Shown piece by piece: positions 2,965 through 22,261 of a stretch of DNA of 33,987 nt. Every line of letters starts with the position of its first letter. Position 1 is the stretch's first letter. The stretch comes from a virus. The stretch lies in IMG/VR virus record IMGVR_UViG_3300043396_000012, positions 1 to 33,987 of that record. The stretch is one strand, 5' to 3'. The position numbers were made by a program, and so were the translations under genes. The notes under the pieces were generated by a model. The model had not been told where the DNA came from and did no database searches. It saw only the letters and a list, made by a program, of their open reading frames with translations.

Positions 2965-5018
2965 TATCGAAGTCCTCTGCGCATGGAGTAATGCACGATG
3001 ATGTTGTTCACCGTGAATGGTTTAATTATCGCTGACACAGAGGAGATTTGGATACCCAAATTCTCCGCAGTGCCCATCAATTCAATCTCAGATGGAGAGA
3101 TGTCGCGGCCGTCCCAAACAAAGTTGTCCCAAGTCATCTCGTCCCAGTAGCTCGAGCGCAAGTCGTTTGCGTACAGCGCACCCGACGCCTGCTCGAGTTC
3201 GACTGAGCGGTAGCCCAAGTCGTAGCCGAAAGCGATCTCAGCATACGAGTCACCAGTAAGCTCAACGCTGGCGCGACGAAAGCGCTTGAGCACGCGTGGA
3301 GACTTGATGCTGTTGTAGACCAAGTTGATGTTTGCTGGGATGACGGCGCCGTCAAAAGACGTGCCAACGTCAAGGCGGTACACGAAGCCGTTGGTCGAGC
3401 CAAAGAACGAAGTGGACGCGCCATCAGGGGTCTCGCCCTCAACGCAGCATGTGACGGCATTGGTGAACTGCACAGGCATGATGCCAAGCACCTTGCTGCC
3501 GTTGAATGTCATGTAGATGCCTGTGCCGTCGCTGAAGAAAATTCGGTACTGGCCCTTCTCGCGATTGAGCACGCTGCCCGTGGCCAAGTTGCGACGAGAC
3601 TGGATGAACGGGCGAATACGCAGCGTCAATGCGTTTGACTCGAAGTTGCCGTAATTTAGCGACGTGTTCATGTTCATGACACCACGGTCATCGAGCACGT
3701 AGGCTTGGTCCATGTTCTGCGAAGTGTATGGCAGGCCGCCAGTACCGCTGTTGAACGTGGACAGCTGGAAGTTGGCTTCGCTTGTGCCGTACAGAATGTT
3801 TGTGTCGTTACGCGTGTAGACGCCAAGAGCGCCAGTCGTTTGGTTGCCTGGCAAGATCAGCAAGTTTGTGATCGCGCCATTGAGCGCAATCTCTCCGGCT
3901 CCAAGTAATGGAGTCCACTTATACGGCTCGCCGATACCTGAGAACTGAAGCGACTCATTGAATGCAAAGAACAGATGGTTCTTGTGCACCGCAACGCGCG
4001 TGGGCACGTCGACCGTCATGCCGGTCTTGATTGGCACATACACAGTACCATCAAACTCGAAGCCGCGGTTCTTGCCATCGCATCCGTAAATCTTGGTGTT
4101 GATTGTGCCGCCACCGAAGTTGCCGATCATTGTCTCGACACGCCCGCTTGGCAGCAGCGTAATCGCTGAGGTTGTGCCATCGGCCACAGCCTTGTTGACC
4201 GTTCCAACTCGGATGGTCTCGTTGTCAATAAACGTGCCAACCACTGTGGACAGTATGAGCTTGCCGGTGGCGTTTGATGTGGACCATGCGCCCGATTCAA
4301 GAACAACGCGAGACACCACGGCAGATGCGCCGCTGGTGAGTCCGTTGATGGTCTGGCCATCAAGGATCTCAGCTGATCCGCCGTCGAACTTAATCTCGTA
4401 GCCCAGTGCAACCTGCACCCATCCAGACGATGTTGATTTGTAGATGTTGGCAGCCGTGGCGCCCACGTTGTTGCGCCACGCATAGACCACGTTGTTGAAG
4501 TATGCGACACCGAGGATTGAGCCGGAGCCTGGCACTGCGGAGATCGATGTGCGGTACTCATCAGCAGCAAGGCCGCGATATGTCGCATCGGTCAAGCCGT
4601 CAACGTCCATACCCTGCACGGCGGTCAAAGTGCCCACGTTTGTCGAGCTGACTTGGATGGTCTCACCAGCCAAGAAAGTGCCGGTCTCGCGGGTGATCAC
4701 CACCTTTGTGCCACTGCGAGCAATGACCTTGCCGGTGGCTGCGCTCGTTACGCCCGTAACGGTATCTCCGACGACGACTGCGCCGGTGAGTGCGCACACC
4801 AAGACGTTGTAGTTCGCAGCCGATGGGCTTGCGTGGCCGTCATAGCGTTCGTACCCAGCGATGCGCGTGTAGCCACCGTTGATCGAGCACTCGAAGTTTG
4901 CAGCGCGACGCGCGAAACCCGGTGGCAGCGACAGGGTTGGGGTGACTTGATCCAAGCCACCCGCAAGGTGCATGAGTTCGTAGTTGACCTTGGGAAGCTG
5001 AACTGGTCTGTTGGCCAT
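2964..5018 (-). CDS. tail tubular protein B-like / tail nozzle or DNA-stabilising hub protein
   Basis: This 684-residue protein lies between the adaptor gene and the fibre gene, where podoviruses encode the nozzle or packaged-DNA stabilisation protein. The start has a clear ribosome site (AGGAG five bases before the ATG). Near the N-terminus it has FECSINGGYTRIAGYERYDG, a pattern I associate with podovirus hub proteins. The body is rich in short beta strands separated by Gly and Asn, with repeated GETIQV/NETIRV-like segments near 100 and 260, fitting a beta-propeller or beta-barrel hub. No signal peptide or membrane segment is seen. It would close the tail end and carry the fibres. The structural role is fairly safe; the specific homology (T7 gp12, P22 gp10 or another) is inference from position and size. 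Confidence 0.6.
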   Translation of the reverse strand: MANRPVQLPKVNYELMHLAGGLDQVTPTLSLPPGFARRAANFECSINGGYTRIAGYERYDGHASPSAANYNVLVCALTGAVVVGDTVTGVTSAATGKVIARSGTKVVITRETGTFLAGETIQVSSTNVGTLTAVQGMDVDGLTDATYRGLAADEYRTSISAVPGSGSILGVAYFNNVVYAWRNNVGATAANIYKSTSSGWVQVALGYEIKFDGGSAEILDGQTINGLTSGASAVVSRVVLESGAWSTSNATGKLILSTVVGTFIDNETIRVGTVNKAVADGTTSAITLLPSGRVETMIGNFGGGTINTKIYGCDGKNRGFEFDGTVYVPIKTGMTVDVPTRVAVHKNHLFFAFNESLQFSGIGEPYKWTPLLGAGEIALNGAITNLLILPGNQTTGALGVYTRNDTNILYGTSEANFQLSTFNSGTGGLPYTSQNMDQAYVLDDRGVMNMNTSLNYGNFESNALTLRIRPFIQSRRNLATGSVLNREKGQYRIFFSDGTGIYMTFNGSKVLGIMPVQFTNAVTCCVEGETPDGASTSFFGSTNGFVYRLDVGTSFDGAVIPANINLVYNSIKSPRVLKRFRRASVELTGDSYAEIAFGYDLGYRSVELEQASGALYANDLRSSYWDEMTWDNFVWDGRDISPSEIELMGTAENLGIQISSVSAIIKPFTVNNIIVHYSMRRGLR

Positions 5019-9530: not shown

Positions 9531-9563
9531 AAAAAGAAAAGGCGCCCTTTTTTAAGGGGCGCC
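9531..9563 (-). terminator. intrinsic terminator between portal and scaffold genes
   Basis: The minus-strand RNA forms a GC-rich stem (GGCGCCC with GGGCGCC, extended by A-U pairs around an AAAA loop) followed directly by UUUUCUUUUU. This is a textbook intrinsic terminator. It lies about 90 bases beyond the portal stop and just before the ribosome site of the 77-residue gene, so it splits the late operon. Confidence 0.85.
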
Positions 9564-9653
9564 TCAACTAATGGCTCATGAAAAAACCGTAGGCCCGTAT
9601 GCAAAGACACTGACCCGACGCGAATAGTACATCATTTTCGAGCCGTGTGCAAA

Positions 9654-11834
9654 TTAAATGCCGCTGCCTTGGTTCACCTTGATGGCGGCCTCGGCATTGA
9701 ACAGCTCACGCTCGTTGTTGATGTGCAGTGCGGCCAAGCGTTCTTTGGACGCAATCTCTTCCTGCGTCATCTGACCGTCCTGAGTCAGCTTGGCAATCTC
9801 AATCTCTCGGCTGAGTTGCGCCTCTGTCATGGCCACCTGATATTGGCCCTGCTCTTTTTGCTGCTCAAAGTCACGCTGCGCCTTGTTGTCTTCCAACTGA
9901 GCAGCCTCGGTCTGAGCTTTGATCTGCGCAGCTGCGATGCGTGGGTCTTGCTGCTGGCCTTGCTGAGCCTGCTGCTGCATGTACTGGTTGTACTCGTCCT
10001 CTGTTTTCATCAGCTCGTCAGGGTTCACCTTGAAGGCTTTCAGAATCGCAGACAGCTCAGCACGGTCCTTCATGTACGGAACATAGCGCGCATTGTTGGT
10101 GATGTTGGCCAAGTTCAAGAGGGCTTGGTTCTGAATGTCGCGCTCGATCAGCGCAGTGCTGCCGCGGGCGTCAATCTCGTAATCGCCTTTGATCTCTGGA
10201 TCTGGATCGTTGGCCATCTTCCAGTCGTAGTAGCGACCGATGTGCGGACGGGTGATGCAGTCGTCGTACAGCTTGACGCGCTGGCGCAGCACGCTGTTGG
10301 CGTTGTTGTACAGCATGACCATGCCGCCGACGGTCTCGGGCGCGCTGCCCTTCTCGCCGCCCATAAGCTGAGGCATACCTGTCTCTTGCTCGGCAAATGT
10401 CATGGCTGCCTGAGCGATGGCCAACAACTCTTGCAGGTGGCTGTTGAACTCGAACACGCTGAAAGCTTTGCTCACGTCCTCGGTGTCGTCCTTGGCCAGC
10501 CAGATCTTGTTGGGCGTGATCTCGTAGCTGCCGTTCTGCGGGATGACCATGCCCTTGCGCATGACCACCTGACCGCCAAGCGAGGTGCGTCCGTTGTCCA
10601 TGACTTGGCGCCAAGCAGAGTTCACCACGCGTTGCTGGTGCTCAAGCTCGTCTGGCAGGCCATAGCCGTAAGGCGAGTCGTCGGCCTTGCGCCAGCACCA
10701 CACGTCGACGGGCAGGCTCTTGTCTTCGACCCATGACTCCATGGCGCCGATGACTTTGTCGTTGACCATGATAAGCACACCGAAGTCGACATCAGTCAAC
10801 GGATCGGCGTTGGTGCGCATGGTCAGCAACTCCATCTCGTCAGGCTCGATCTCGCCGTGGTAGGTCCACATCTCGTAGCTGTCTTCCTTGATGACGTCGC
10901 GCATGACGCGGCCCTCGGCTACACGGATGCGGCTTGGTGGCGCGCGCAGCACGTCGCGGATTGCATCGGCGTCGTAGCCGGGAATGCCAACGAGGCGGCG
11001 CAATTCTTTGCGGGTTACGTCGCGACGGATGAAGAAACCACGGCCACGTTGGTGATCGTTGCCACAGGCTGGGTCAAAGAACACGTTCCATGGGTCGAGC
11101 GACTCTGAAGATGGGACGATGGATTCGTTGATTTGAAGCACTTGCGTGCCACCCTGCTGGGGTAGCCACACCTTGCTCGTTTGACGGGCTGGAAAGGGGC
11201 CATGCATGATGCCTGTGCCCAATCGCACAGCGTTGTCGATCAGCTCGCGGCTCTCGCCGTTGAACTTGGCTTCGGTAAGGCTGTCGTCGATTGACTTCTC
11301 CATGGACTCGGCAGACTTCTTGGCAGCCTCAACCACCAACTGAGCCTCTTGGTTTGCCGTCATGCCGGTGGGTTCACCAGTCTGCGGGTTAACCGTCTTG
11401 CGTTCGTCGCCCATCATGGATGCAACCTCTGGCACTGGTGTTGGCTTGATGCCCCAGTTCTTGTCGTCGGTTGGGAACAAGATCTCGCACATGCGAGCGA
11501 TGGCTTGGTCCACCTTGGGACGCACGATGTTTACCACCACGCGCGAGCGGTTGCCGTCTGTCACCTTGCGTGCGGGCGGGCCGTTACGTAACGTGTTCTC
11601 GAACTCGCCTGTCGTGGTGTTGTGCTCGCCCCAGTAGAGCTGAGCCGCACGGCGCCAACGCTTCTCAACGTTGCTTTGAGCGCGGTGCTGTACCCACTTG
11701 TCGCGCAGCGTGGAGAACATGCCGTGCAGCTTGGTCACCTCTTGCTGGACGTGCTGGTCGTACTGCTCACGCGTCATGATCTCGTTGCCATCGATGACGG
11801 CGAGGTGTTGTTTGTTTTCGTCTGGGTTATGCAT
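9654..11834 (-). CDS. portal protein
   Basis: This 726-residue protein lies immediately downstream of TerL, with GAGGT five bases before the start. The N-terminus contains WRRAAQLYWGEHNTT and a VVVNIVRPKVDQAIARM segment typical of large podovirus portals. The central part (about 230-420) carries wing and stem elements (DPWNVFFDPAC, WCWRKADDSPYGYG). The crown/barrel region from about 590 is very Gln-rich (MQQQAQQGQQQ), then long amphipathic helices. As the twelvefold ring it forms the DNA entry vertex and binds TerL and the adaptor. Length is at the high end, as in P22-like portals with a C-terminal barrel. Confidence 0.85.
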   Translation of the reverse strand: MHNPDENKQHLAVIDGNEIMTREQYDQHVQQEVTKLHGMFSTLRDKWVQHRAQSNVEKRWRRAAQLYWGEHNTTTGEFENTLRNGPPARKVTDGNRSRVVVNIVRPKVDQAIARMCEILFPTDDKNWGIKPTPVPEVASMMGDERKTVNPQTGEPTGMTANQEAQLVVEAAKKSAESMEKSIDDSLTEAKFNGESRELIDNAVRLGTGIMHGPFPARQTSKVWLPQQGGTQVLQINESIVPSSESLDPWNVFFDPACGNDHQRGRGFFIRRDVTRKELRRLVGIPGYDADAIRDVLRAPPSRIRVAEGRVMRDVIKEDSYEMWTYHGEIEPDEMELLTMRTNADPLTDVDFGVLIMVNDKVIGAMESWVEDKSLPVDVWCWRKADDSPYGYGLPDELEHQQRVVNSAWRQVMDNGRTSLGGQVVMRKGMVIPQNGSYEITPNKIWLAKDDTEDVSKAFSVFEFNSHLQELLAIAQAAMTFAEQETGMPQLMGGEKGSAPETVGGMVMLYNNANSVLRQRVKLYDDCITRPHIGRYYDWKMANDPDPEIKGDYEIDARGSTALIERDIQNQALLNLANITNNARYVPYMKDRAELSAILKAFKVNPDELMKTEDEYNQYMQQQAQQGQQQDPRIAAAQIKAQTEAAQLEDNKAQRDFEQQKEQGQYQVAMTEAQLSREIEIAKLTQDGQMTQEEIASKERLAALHINNERELFNAEAAIKVNQGSGI

Positions 11835-11842
11835 GATTTACC

Positions 11843-13360
11843 TCAATAACCAGTAACAGAATCTAGAGCTTCCCACGCATGGTGCTGCCCAGTTGGAACA
11901 ACCCAGTCGTCTTTCTTTTCGACTGGGTAAGCGAATGTCAGGGCCAAGCTATCAGCCCTGTCTGGTGATTTGATGCCGCGCTTCTTGGCGTCTTGCTTGC
12001 TCTCGAGCAGCAGCTCACCACCCTTGTAGCCGTATTGCAAGGCAGTGAGGTCGGTGATGAGGGCATTATCGTTTGGAATTGACGCGCCGGCCTTGAGCCA
12101 CTCACGCATCTCGCGCCACATGTGCGCACGCAGGTTGTAGCTCTTTCCGTCGCTCATGCGCAGCGAGCTGTTGACGTCCACCACGATGTCGCCGAAGTCG
12201 CGGCGCAGGATGTCGGCAACGCCGGAGCCAATGCCGATGGTATCGACAGCGATCTGGGCGATGTCACCCATCTGCTCGCGGTATACCTCTTTGGCGCGGC
12301 CCGCCACGTCAACGACGTCAGCACCACGAAAGTTGATCTGACGCAGAAGCACGCGGCCTTGGCGCAGGCTGATCGAGCTGCCGTCGTCACCAAAACGGGC
12401 GACGTCGATACCCATGATGATCGGGCCGTAGGGCATGACATCCATGGGGCCTTTGCGAGATGCGGCCATGACCAGCTCGCCGGGAATGAATGCGTTGGCC
12501 ACCGAAGCGGTGTAGCTGCGGTCAACTTCCTGCGCGAGCACGACTGGGTCGAGCGTTGCCTTTTGCTTCTCGTACCACACCTCGTCCTTGCGCGGGTCGT
12601 CACGCCAGTCGAAGACGAACTTCTTGGTCTTGCCGTCGTGTGCGCGGCGGTAGAACGGATTGCCCGCACCGTTGGGTGTTGACACGTAGAGTCGGCAGTT
12701 CGATGTCTGCGACAGCGCAGCGTCAGCTGACTCTGGGTGCTCCAAGAATGCGGCCTCATCCACGAAGTAGATCGATGTGCGGTTACCGCGGCCAATGTTG
12801 TCGCCAGCCTCGCCGGTGATAAACGACCCGTTCTCTGGGTTCTGGATCTTCATGAACGGCGCATGCTTGCTAGGGTCCCAGCTGTCAGGCTGGAACTCGG
12901 CTGGCAGCAGGTTGATGAACTCTCGCACCTTCCAGAACAGCGACGCGGGGTTGCCGATCTGGTCGACGTAGCTTTCTTTGCGTGAGCCGAAGCCCACCAC
13001 AGTGCCGGTCTTGAACAGCATCATCCATGCGGCGAAGCCAACGGTCAGCCAGCTCAGGCCCATGTCACGAGACTTCTCGACTAGGCCGTCCTCGCGGGCG
13101 AGCCAGCGCTGCAGCAACCAGTCAATGAACTCGCGCTGCTTGGGGAACAGCACGAATGGGACCACGGTGCGCAACCCACGTTCGGCCAAGCGTGGGTCGA
13201 ACGTCATGCCCCAGTCGTTGATGAAGTCGGCAGGGTTGCCGGCGTAGTAATCCTTGAGGCGGTGCACGATCTCAGGCTGCGCACGCATGCGCTCAAGGCG
13301 CTCGACGCGCTGCTTGAAAACCTCTTCGTAGTTCGGGTTGATCCAGTTGAAGTTTTCCAT
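11843..13360 (-). CDS. terL: terminase large subunit (ATPase-nuclease)
   Basis: This 505-residue packaging motor shares one base with the TerS stop (TGATG). The ATPase has a Walker-A-like KSRDMGLSW at 96-104, Walker B IYFVDEA at 197-203 with the catalytic Glu, and a coupling motif STPNG at 227-231. The nuclease has GIDVARFGDDGSS with Asp319, AVDTIGIGSG with Asp373, and DRADSLALTF with Asp470, the three-acid RNase-H-fold site. It cuts concatemers and pumps DNA through the portal. The family is clear; the packaging type cannot be read safely. Confidence 0.95.
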   Translation of the reverse strand: MENFNWINPNYEEVFKQRVERLERMRAQPEIVHRLKDYYAGNPADFINDWGMTFDPRLAERGLRTVVPFVLFPKQREFIDWLLQRWLAREDGLVEKSRDMGLSWLTVGFAAWMMLFKTGTVVGFGSRKESYVDQIGNPASLFWKVREFINLLPAEFQPDSWDPSKHAPFMKIQNPENGSFITGEAGDNIGRGNRTSIYFVDEAAFLEHPESADAALSQTSNCRLYVSTPNGAGNPFYRRAHDGKTKKFVFDWRDDPRKDEVWYEKQKATLDPVVLAQEVDRSYTASVANAFIPGELVMAASRKGPMDVMPYGPIIMGIDVARFGDDGSSISLRQGRVLLRQINFRGADVVDVAGRAKEVYREQMGDIAQIAVDTIGIGSGVADILRRDFGDIVVDVNSSLRMSDGKSYNLRAHMWREMREWLKAGASIPNDNALITDLTALQYGYKGGELLLESKQDAKKRGIKSPDRADSLALTFAYPVEKKDDWVVPTGQHHAWEALDSVTGY

Positions 13361-13884
13361 CAGAGACCCTTGACCATGCGCTCGTAGGCTTGCTCTGCGG
13401 TGAGCGTGAGATCAGCCTTGACCTCGATGGCGCCACCATTCTTGCCAGTCAGCTCGAGCTTTGACTTGTCGCCATAGTCCAAGGCGTTGAGCTTGGCCGC
13501 CACCTTGAGGTTGGTGTCGACGGCAACGCGAAAGCCCGCGGCGTCACCAATGGCCGCGGCGCTTCGGCCGTAGTCGATGGCGGCGTCCACCAAGTTGTGA
13601 GCGCGCAGGGCGCCGATCTTGGCGTAGGTTTCCTTGGTTGTCTCATGCTCCATCAAGATGGCGCGCAGTTTCCAGCCGGCGACGGTGAAGTCGAGCGTGT
13701 CGGCGATGGCTTGGAAAGATTCACCCCACACGTAGCGGTCAAAGACATCGTCTGCCACGGCAAGAACCTGCTCACGCAAAACCTCGGCGGCGTCGCGCTC
13801 TGGCTTGCGATGCAGTGCCACCGTCTCTGGCACGTACTTGCGGCGGGGTTTCTTTTCGGGTGTGTCGCTCATATCACTTGGCAT
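13360..13884 (-). CDS. terS: terminase small subunit
   Basis: This 174-residue protein precedes TerL. The N-terminus is basic (KKPRRKYVPE). Residues ~55-80 (ESFQAIADTLDFTVAGWKLRAIL) look like a helix-turn-helix for DNA recognition, followed by long helices suitable for oligomer formation and a C-terminal LTAEQAYERMVKGL tail that may touch TerL. The start is uncertain: ATG 13884 overlaps the previous gene by 11 bases, while ATG 13872 (MSDTPEKK) lies just after its stop; neither has a good ribosome site. Role is assigned from position and architecture. Confidence 0.75.
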   Translation of the reverse strand: MPSDMSDTPEKKPRRKYVPETVALHRKPERDAAEVLREQVLAVADDVFDRYVWGESFQAIADTLDFTVAGWKLRAILMEHETTKETYAKIGALRAHNLVDAAIDYGRSAAAIGDAAGFRVAVDTNLKVAAKLNALDYGDKSKLELTGKNGGAIEVKADLTLTAEQAYERMVKGL

Positions 13885-14032
13885 GGCGGCGAGCTTCGCT
13901 CATGGCGATAGCTTTGGCCTGTGCTGGGTTCTTGACGATGGGACCGCCCTTGCCTGAATGCAGCTGGCCTTTGGCGAACTCGCGCATGACGATGCCAACT
14001 TTCTTTTGCTGGGCTGGGGTTTGCTTGTTCAT
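13874..14032 (-). CDS. DUF6496-like small basic protein
   Basis: This 52-residue protein starts at ATG 14032, with GGAG eight bases upstream. It reads KVGIVMREFAKGQLHSGKGG then KNPAQAKAIAMSEARRHAK, the compact pattern (VMxEF-x-GxL-SGxG ... QAxAIAxSEA) I associate with DUF6496. It is the first gene after the promoter-terminator pair and directly precedes TerS. Function of the family is unknown; strong basic character could allow nucleic-acid contact. Confidence 0.75.
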   Translation of the reverse strand: MNKQTPAQQKKVGIVMREFAKGQLHSGKGGPIVKNPAQAKAIAMSEARRHAK

Positions 14033-14120
14033 TGTGACGTCTCCACAAGGGTGAATGACACCCCTAGCCATCCCTATCTCATGGGAGACGGACACTTGAA
14101 AGGGCGGCAGGGGGTCAATA

Positions 14121-14149
14121 AAAATGAAAAAGCCCACGCTAGGTGGGCT
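14121..14149 (-). terminator. intrinsic terminator ahead of the late genes
   Basis: The minus-strand RNA forms a perfect 7-bp stem AGCCCAC / GTGGGCT around CTAGC, followed by UUUUUCAUUUUU. It ends transcripts of the small-gene cassette and also those starting at the promoter just upstream, before the DUF6496 and terminase genes. Confidence 0.85.
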
Positions 14150-14176
14150 GATTTTGGAGACACTGCTCCGAGGCGC

Positions 14177-14205
14177 ACTATATCACCGGTTCCCGATGAC
14201 GTCAA
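14177..14205 (-). promoter_or_regulatory. strong sigma70-type promoter, candidate late promoter
   Basis: On the minus strand TTGACG (14205-14200) is separated by exactly 17 bases from TATAGT (14182-14177), with TG one base before the -10 (extended -10). Both hexamers match the consensus at five of six bases. Transcription would start near 14170 and meet the terminator at 14149-14121 within about 20 bases. The -10 overlaps the stop of the 91-residue gene. Confidence 0.7.
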
Positions 14206-14458
14206 CGGCGTCCAGCTGGATGCGCTTTAGACCCATGCGAGTCTCGAGCGCAAGGTGACGCAGCGCAGCCTCGACCGCCTCCTGATTGCTGGTGAAGCCC
14301 CACTGCTTGCGCAGGTAGATCAATGCCGCCGTAGCCTCAGTGTGCGCATGGAAAGCCACAGTGATGCCGCGACTCGCCTGCTTCGCGCGCCACCGCTTCT
14401 GGCGCTCAGCGTTCGTTAGTGGCGCTGGCTTGTCCAGCTTCAGCTTGTCGATGTTCAC
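14183..14458 (-). CDS. small DNA-binding-like protein (last gene of cassette)
   Basis: This 91-residue protein contains LTNAERQKRWRAKQASRGI (14-32), a basic helix seen in many small phage proteins, followed by VAFHAHTEATAALIYLRKQWG and NQEAVEAALRHLALETR. The second half resembles a ribbon-helix-helix or short regulator fold (strand, then two helices). It overlaps the 64-residue gene before it by 53 bases, and its stop is part of the late promoter. DNA binding is an inference from the pattern. Confidence 0.6.
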   Translation of the reverse strand: MNIDKLKLDKPAPLTNAERQKRWRAKQASRGITVAFHAHTEATAALIYLRKQWGFTSNQEAVEAALRHLALETRMGLKRIQLDAVDVIGNR

Positions 14459-15810: not shown

Positions 15811-16001
15811 AGCTTCTCCTCGATCTCATTCAATGAAACGATCACACGAAGCGAGGCCCAAGCCAACACCTGCATGTAATCCTTGTGGATCAGACCATCA
15901 ACGATCTGCACCCATATCACGATCATCATCGCCAGCACTGCGAGCTTCCACAGCAGTGTTCCGATTGACTGCGCGATCTTCAGTTTGTCTTTGTGCGTCA
16001 T
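15807..16001 (-). CDS. small membrane protein (64 residues)
   Basis: Start chosen at ATG 16001, which shares a base with the upstream stop (TGATG) and has GGAG six bases before it; earlier in-frame ATGs at 16013 and 16031 lie inside the upstream gene. A short basic head (MTHKDKLK) is followed by a hydrophobic segment at about 14-35 (TLLWKLAVLAMMIVIWVQIV) that should cross the inner membrane once. The remainder is polar. A holin or exclusion protein is possible, but with one segment and no lysis partners nearby this is open. Confidence 0.6.
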   Translation of the reverse strand: MTHKDKLKIAQSIGTLLWKLAVLAMMIVIWVQIVDGLIHKDYMQVLAWASLRVIVSLNEIEEKL

Positions 16002-16809: not shown

Positions 16810-17163
16810 TCAGCCTAGGGTCTCGTCAATATATTTTGCGAGCATTCGCCCAGCCTCTAGCACCAGCTCGCGGTCGTTGTCTTTGACCTGCAAGTCCTTG
16901 CGAGTCCACTGCCTGAACTCACGGCTGAGTGCGCGCCAGTGATCTGGGTGTGTGGTCTTTAGCCAATCAACTGCAGCGGTCATGGCGCGAAGCTCTGCGC
17001 TGCTGTAGCCCTCAACGTCCTCGACCTCGGCAGCGAACGCCGTTGTCTTGGCAAACATGGGTGACACGTGAGGGAAGCCAAGGTCACCTTGCGCGTCGCT
17101 CCAATCCTTGGCCGCCCACATGCTGAGCAACTCACCGCACCAGTCGGGTTGGATTCGAATCAT
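16810..17163 (-). CDS. hypothetical helical protein, possible late regulator
   Basis: This 117-residue protein starts MIRIQPDWCGELLSMWAA and has two long helical stretches, SSAELRAMTAAVDWLKTTHP and WRALSREFRQWTRKD, then ELVLEAGRMLAKYIDETLG. It starts with an ATGA overlap and is the last gene before the internal promoter. Downstream of RusA and upstream of a promoter-terminator pair is where lambda-like phages keep their Q-type antiterminator, and the helical, Arg/Trp-rich make-up would be compatible. I see no diagnostic motif, so this is a positional guess. Confidence 0.5.
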   Translation of the reverse strand: MIRIQPDWCGELLSMWAAKDWSDAQGDLGFPHVSPMFAKTTAFAAEVEDVEGYSSAELRAMTAAVDWLKTTHPDHWRALSREFRQWTRKDLQVKDNDRELVLEAGRMLAKYIDETLG

Positions 17164-22023: not shown

Positions 22024-22200
22024 TTAAAGGATGCCCTTGTCGATCTTCAGTGCGCCCTTGGTCACCTTGTTGATCTTGACTTGCTGCATCGCTGGGATGC
22101 CGCGCTTCTGCCAATTAGAAACGCAAGGCTGGGTGCAACCAAGAGCCTTGGCTGCCGCAACTTGGGTCTTGAAGTGCTTAATAAGTTGTGCGAATGTCAT
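22024..22200 (-). CDS. Cro/YdaS-like helix-turn-helix regulator (58 residues)
   Basis: ATG 22200 is used (MTFAQLIKHFKTQ); an in-frame ATG further up lies upstream of the likely transcription start. The helix-turn-helix is KTQVAAAKALGCTQPCVSNW (10-29), followed by QKRGIPAMQQVKINKVTKGALKID. The VSNW-x-KRGIP then Q.KI.K.T.GALK.D pattern is the YdaS/Cro signature. It is the first gene of the leftward operon, divergent from the right operon, and probably binds operators in the region between. No CI-type partner is visible. Confidence 0.8.
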   Translation of the reverse strand: MTFAQLIKHFKTQVAAAKALGCTQPCVSNWQKRGIPAMQQVKINKVTKGALKIDKGIL

Positions 22201-22233
22201 TGTCTTTTCTCTGGTTGGATGTAGATGGCCGCG

Positions 22234-22250
22234 AGTATAGCACCTGTGAA
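22234..22250 (-). promoter_or_regulatory. leftward promoter of the cro-like gene, TTCACA-type
   Basis: The minus strand reads TTCACAGGTGCTATACT, with an extended -10 (TGCTATACT). The start would be near 22227. The TTCACA part is one arm of the dyad at 22244-22261. It resembles the element at 22569 with two bases fewer between the parts. Confidence 0.6.
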
Positions 22251-22261
22251 CCACATCACAG
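22244..22261. promoter_or_regulatory. CTGTGA-N6-TCACAG dyad in the divergent control region
   Basis: A perfect 6-bp inverted repeat with a 6-base centre. It overlaps the leftward promoter and lies about 67 bases upstream of the rightward start. The form TGTGA-N6-TCACA equals the half-site pattern of CRP-family proteins; it might instead be a phage operator. Confidence 0.55.

Follow-up and report, generated by a model that had tools for sequence, protein, structure and literature searches.

Most knowledge of Q-type antitermination comes from the lambdoid phages, with their single late promoter, and a small number of relatives encoded by hosts (AlpA and GafZ). The antiterminator AlpA acts on two operons, bypassing in each a terminator that begins 26 or 54 nt past the start site (PMC7969949), and for lambda Q, AlpA, and GafZ the antiterminator binding element lies between the -35 and -10 sequences (PMC9371919, PMC7969949, PMC11150451). 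A literature search found no phages with several Q-controlled late promoters, a result which does not show that none have been published. In the locus examined here, an uncultured phage family seems to repeat a promoter-terminator switch at each of its late operons, with an antiterminator too divergent to be detected by family profiles.

The DNA analyzed, referred to as the window, comes from IMG/VR, where it is a virus record 33,987 bases long. Its late genes lie on the minus strand and run leftward from 13884 in the order terminase small subunit, terminase large subunit, portal, and scaffold- and capsid-like genes; a tail-fiber-like gene occupies the left end. On the same strand, upstream of the late genes, is a delayed-early block of primase-like, RusA-like, and small genes. 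The early genes point rightward, beginning at about 22,300. The promoter region of the Cro-like gene at 22024-22254 contains TGTGATGTGGTTCACA, a CRP-like or operator-like palindrome. The late genes relevant to the analysis are as follows.

13360-13884, minus strand: terminase small subunit of late operon 1 (PF20901 Sf6_terminase match)
11843-13360, minus strand: terminase large subunit of late operon 1
9654-11834, minus strand: portal protein; the -35 of promoter P2 starts immediately 3' of its stop codon
7317-9518, minus strand: late operon 2, comprising a 77-residue protein, a scaffold-like protein of 297 residues, and a major-capsid-like protein of 348 residues (putative roles, assigned from position and size)

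A preliminary description of this DNA had reported TTGACG and TATAGT separated by 17 bases, with an extended -10, and an intrinsic terminator starting about 20 bases after the predicted start, and had likened the arrangement to pR'-tR'. The promoter-like sequence was found exactly where described, on the minus strand, and the stem of the terminator begins at about +20/+21, 27 nt past the -10, when the predicted start is taken as near 14170-14169.

14177-14205, minus strand: promoter P1, with -35 TTGACG (14205-14200), a 17-bp spacer, -10 TATAGT (14182-14177), and TG 5' of the -10 (extended -10), identified from sequence and from conservation in relatives
14156-14170, minus strand: 5' leader motif of P1, CGGAGCAGTGTCTCC, a small hairpin (GGAG/CTCC) at about +1 to +15, which is found again at P2 and, in relatives, at P3
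14117-14149, minus strand: intrinsic terminator t1, with stem AGCCCAC/GTGGGCT (14149-14131) and T run (14130-14117), identified from covariation and folding energy
14183-14458, minus strand: 91-residue ribbon-helix-helix (RHH)-like protein, identified from structure matches and gene position, whose gene end overlaps P1 in the window and in nearly all relatives

The overlap with the 91-residue gene covers the -35 and spacer of P1, and the letters directly 3' of the t1 stem are TTTTCATTTTTATT. The predicted P1 transcript has a minimum free energy of -16.5 kcal/mol (z = -3.5). P1 is the top-scoring promoter match within 10-20 kb of the window; single promoter or terminator matches in 10-20 kb were no commoner than in shuffled sequence, and a scan of the single sequence did not distinguish this site from chance. 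The composite of the two was defined as a promoter matching at 10 or more of 12 positions whose -10 is followed, 15 to 45 nt on, by the start of a hairpin with 7 or more bp and a T run. The window has one such composite, and 150 Markov shuffles yielded none. An 87-residue open reading frame 3' of P1 has an apparent GTG start at 14137; because this GTG falls within the terminator and only residues 43 to 85 match DUF6496, translation probably begins at an ATG near 14032. Past the terminator (14070-14120, minus strand), a C-rich stretch and CGTCTCCC are kept in nearly all relatives, the version in the window being GACCCCCTGCCG...CCGTCTCCC. A search of Rfam returned no match.

Using the terminase protein as a query against IMG/VR, 42 loci were identified, most of them 77 to 98% identical, and further loci were added by searches with the 91-residue protein and a 117-residue protein considered below. 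Promoter, 5' leader motif, and terminator recur at near-fixed spacing in 34 of the 37 distinct sequences, where the module is located directly after the 91-residue gene. The remaining three have a gene inserted ahead, and beyond the inserted gene two of them, L150 and L148 (L031 contig), carry an intact module. The distance from the -10 to the stem is 22 to 30 nt in 30 of the 34 sequences (the 30 nt of L008 being taken from a separate reading of that locus) and 45 to 50 nt in the other four. Across the aligned transcripts (A5), 98.9% of cells in the t1 stem are paired, with double changes at four of its seven pairs; for the 5' leader hairpin the corresponding values are 87% and two of four pairs. 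The distance between the module and the large terminase gene ranges from less than 600 to more than 1,400 nt among relatives, and thus the module has been kept while its surroundings changed. This comparative conservation provides the decisive support for the module. At the sequence level, the pR'-tR'-like arrangement ahead of the terminase operon is real and conserved.

Insertions of endonuclease-like genes were seen exactly at the P1 or P2 promoter in L150 (about 4208-4749), L148 (before 4839), and L065 (7014-7671); the module that follows the inserted gene is intact. By eye, inserted genes of this kind are GIY-YIG-like in L092 and L150 and HNH-like in G020, and they may target late promoters.

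Elsewhere in the window the leader motif CGGRGMAGTGYSYCC is present solely at 9617-9603, within the promoter-like sequence of a second promoter-leader-terminator module (9652-9531) located between the portal and scaffold/capsid genes.

9624-9652, minus strand: promoter P2, with TTGCAC (9652-9647), a 17-bp spacer, and TACTAT (9629-9624); the -35 matches the consensus at just three of six positions
9603-9617, minus strand: leader motif of P2, CGGGTCAGTGTCTTT
9531-9565, minus strand: intrinsic terminator t2, GAGGCGCCC-cttaaaaaa-GGGCGCCTT (9565-9539) with a T run, ahead of the 77-residue gene and the scaffold/capsid genes

t2 is predicted to be a strong terminator, with a folding energy of -17 kcal/mol. 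P2 lies directly after the portal gene in 11 of 17 distinct post-portal sequences, and in all 11 a terminator is found 91 to 103 nt past the portal stop, with stems that change compensatorily. A third module (P3) was identified in the longer relatives G009, G011, G015, G012, and G020 and, in weaker form, in G001. It is located just past lysis-type genes and ahead of a virion-type protein (M-A-T-...NPFDTQ), its terminator standing shortly 5' of the start codon. Neither the second module, nor the third, nor the leader motif common to them had featured in the preliminary description. Scores for a two-part motif, whose matrix was trained on these same sites and which therefore describe the sites and are no independent test, were 33 to 48 for P1 copies outside the clade of the window and 29 to 48 for most P2 and P3 copies, the best shuffled score being 17.8. 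The P2 of the window (20.8) and the shifted P3 of G011, G015, and G012 (about 14) scored low, and their assignment consequently rests on position and leader.

The repetition of the module bears on whether P1-t1 could instead yield a small regulatory RNA of about 48 nt with two hairpins, late transcription beginning elsewhere. The P1 transcript is short, structured (z of -3.5), and conserved, with covariation in both hairpins, all of which would suit such an RNA, but the same leader opens P2 and P3, both ahead of late operons, and the minus strand from P1 to the terminase genes contains no other promoter at the scan threshold. This explanation is considered very improbable.

The transcript-start motif CGGRGMAGTGYSYCC is common to most modules, is specific to the late modules, and is transcribed. 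Its CAGTGT element has a conserved A and T and is an imperfect match to the TATAAT expected of a -10-like, sigma-dependent pause element. The late transcripts begin with a conserved hairpin whose loop is also partly conserved, and it could be asked whether the leader RNA itself antiterminates, like put and with no protein. However, the t1 hairpin comes after no more than about 20 nt of transcript, which probably leaves too little length for a put-like RNA to fold and work outside the polymerase; the small hairpin is weak at P2; and a conserved gene with similarity to that of phage 21 Q would be left unexplained. Of all the explanations weighed, this is the one given the least credence.

Between the -35 and -10, most relatives carry a spacer motif, TATCACAATG, whose position with respect to the -10 and leader differs by about one helical turn in one group; the P1 of the window has diverged and does not contain it. 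TATCACAATG was considered as a Q-binding element and then demoted, since in the relatives the same motif is present in the early Cro-gene and primase promoters, as well as at some gene starts, and so provides no evidence for such an element. A perfect palindrome, TATCACAGTTGTGATA, at 41325 (plus strand) of the G011 contig lies beside a Cro-like gene, has a half-site matching the late-promoter spacer motif, and is possibly an immunity operator. Given this palindrome and the presence of the spacer motif in Cro and primase promoters, TATCACAATG may be a repressor operator. Spacer element and leader together could then form an operator through which the late promoters are controlled at initiation (by an immunity repressor or by a Cro-like or RHH protein), the hairpins only ending the upstream transcript. 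The TATCACA-type sites in the spacers of the Cro and primase promoters and the palindrome beside the G011 Cro gene are in keeping with this, as is the fact that t1 is also situated at the end of the early operon. Terminators placed just past several late promoters would nevertheless be pointless without readthrough, and the leader motif is confined to late modules and transcribed; control at initiation is therefore regarded as quite unlikely.

The preliminary description, which had recognized no known Q, named proteins of 117 and 184 residues as candidate antiterminators. The latter (at 16001) was rejected for its poor conservation: several close relatives have versions only 25 to 37% identical, and in the more distant relatives none was detected. 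The former gained support from remote similarity to Q21 in both profile and structure comparisons.

16810-17163, minus strand: 117-residue protein, candidate Q21-type antiterminator, identified from profile comparison, structural alignment, and gene position

This protein is kept in most relatives whose sequence extends far enough. Its gene lies between RusA and P1 (in L044 directly 5' of the 91-residue gene and P1), and this position between RusA and the late promoter can be likened to that of Q genes. Q-family profiles did not recognize it: a single-sequence search gave no match at the curated cutoff of PF06530 (Q21), the lambda Q family profile PF03589 gave no match, and neither did that of the Q82 family, PF06323, for which the control genomes were equally silent. 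Pfam and PHROG scans of the 117- and 184-residue proteins gave nothing credible, cultured phages contained no match to the 117- or 91-residue protein, and bacterial genome contigs contained none to the 117-residue family. PDB sequence searches with the 117- and 91-residue alignments found nothing, and Foldseek comparison of the 117-residue model with PDB and BFVD gave no significant match.

Using hhalign, the first alignment of the 117-residue family did not match a single QuuD sequence significantly, and the match became significant once both alignments were widened. The family (24 sequences) aligned with five PF06530-type Q proteins at 80% probability (E = 1.5e-5) over 98 collinear columns. 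The score of 35.9 compares with 21.7 for the best of 300 column-shuffled controls and 12 to 16 for reversed or RHH controls. Dropping the two or three most divergent homologs weakened the match to 40% (E = 3e-4) and then 21% (E = 1e-3). QuuD, a member of the PF06530-type comparison family, itself matches Q21 at an E value of 7.6e-7. These profile-profile comparisons support a remote homology of the 117-residue family to the Q21 family (PF06530), and as it is these comparisons alone that indicate membership of PF06530, the curated cutoff not being reached, "Q21-like protein" is the best name for it. When a model of the protein (pLDDT of 74) was searched with VIA-align, Q21 entries ranked 1 to 3 over 92 to 97 residues, with Z values of 6.4 to 6.6, the upper value lying within the range that the tool calls common for helical models; below them were sigma region 4 domains and AlpA (rank 6, Z of 5.0, 95 residues). 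Because the Z values are modest, the structural match is taken as modest support rather than proof. The C-terminal helix-turn-helix region is short in the 117-residue protein and longer in the homolog from L110.

L110 (4902-5264) is a phage contig in which the homolog has 131 residues and in which, by eye, a GroES-like protein of 120 residues lies between the homolog and the terminase genes. A layout like that of the window is seen in Burkholderia phage Magia (L156, 4871-5407), where a 143-residue hypothetical protein, gp68, follows RusA and is itself followed by TTGTAA-17-TATGAT and an annotated terminator. Perhaps gp68 is another unrecognized Q-type protein.

For the 91-residue protein, a Pfam search found no family, and RHH domains of NikR, ParD, and MazE were among the top structure matches (Z of up to 4.7). 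Its gene adjoins P1 in nearly all relatives and it looks like a DNA-binding fold, which raises the question of whether the modules are antiterminated by another factor, namely this protein, acting by itself or with a partner, or else a factor of the host. A precedent exists in GafY, which activates in concert with the antiterminator GafZ in the Caulobacter gene transfer agent (PMC11150451). Against this, the protein showed no relation to the 117-residue or Q families in control comparisons and belongs to a class not known for antitermination, and its predicted DNA-facing strand varies widely among relatives while the module stays constant. The linkage to P1 may merely reflect the overlap between gene end and promoter. 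Another factor is consequently judged unlikely.

In their anatomy, the modules correspond to a Q-controlled late switch that is present anew at every late operon, and the antiterminator is likely a remote relative of Q21. P1 and P2 would be host RNA polymerase promoters for the terminase-portal and scaffold-capsid operons, respectively, each operon being blocked by its promoter-proximal intrinsic terminator such that only short terminated RNAs, of about 46 to 50 nt from P1, would be made early in infection. The 117-residue protein would be produced from the delayed-early operon ending at P1 and, as a Q21-type processive antiterminator, would load onto RNA polymerase at or just past each late promoter. 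Loading would be aided by promoter and 5' leader sequence and probably also by polymerase pausing early, when the terminator hairpin has yet to emerge. The loaded polymerase would pass t1, t2, and later terminators. From anatomy and homology we infer the antitermination step, as well as promoter activity, termination, pausing, and binding by the 117-residue protein, and we consider it probable that a Q21-type antiterminator, this protein, turns on several late operons that are separately guarded by promoter-proximal terminators. The more far-reaching proposal, that one such antiterminator runs a phage-wide late regulon of three promoter-terminator modules and is loaded by the transcript-start code CGGRGMAGTGYSYCC instead of a promoter-spacer element, is tentative and may well not hold. 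If the probable reading is correct, a new phage group would come under Q21-like control and one antiterminator would be seen to serve several operons, and unrecognized Q proteins could be found via promoter-terminator pairs beside terminase and capsid genes.

Among known systems, the lambdoid pR'-tR'/Q arrangement (phage 21 Q, PF06530; lambda Q, PF03589; Q82, PF06323) shares with these phages a delayed-early Q-like gene 3' of RusA and a promoter directed into an intrinsic terminator, followed by packaging and structural genes, and with phage 21 Q the 117-residue protein shares remote profile and fold similarity. The lambdoid arrangement has one module, whereas these phages have several per genome; here, in addition, the P1 terminator begins at about +20, an RHH gene overlaps the promoter, and the 117-residue protein is below Q-profile detection and has a shorter C-terminal region. 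AlpA of Pseudomonas aeruginosa, whose structure is among the matches to the 117-residue model (Z of 5.0), serves more than one promoter (those of alpB and PA0807), as proposed for the 117-residue protein, and the terminators lie only a short way past the start (54 and 26 nt), but it governs host lysis genes and its binding element, GGGACG, lies between the -35 and -10. In the comparable GafYZ system of the Caulobacter gene transfer agent, an antiterminator and a second DNA-binding protein control a structural gene cluster, although GafZ has a single target promoter, with a terminator after the first gene. The put RNA of HK022 is comparable as a structured 5' leader of phage transcripts; however, it acts without protein on early transcripts, whereas the present phages have a Q21-like gene and a leader that runs nearly straight into a terminator. 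The proposed switch would thus vary the lambda pR'-tR'/Q and AlpA schemes in two respects: each genome has several modules, and the antiterminator is missed by family profiles.
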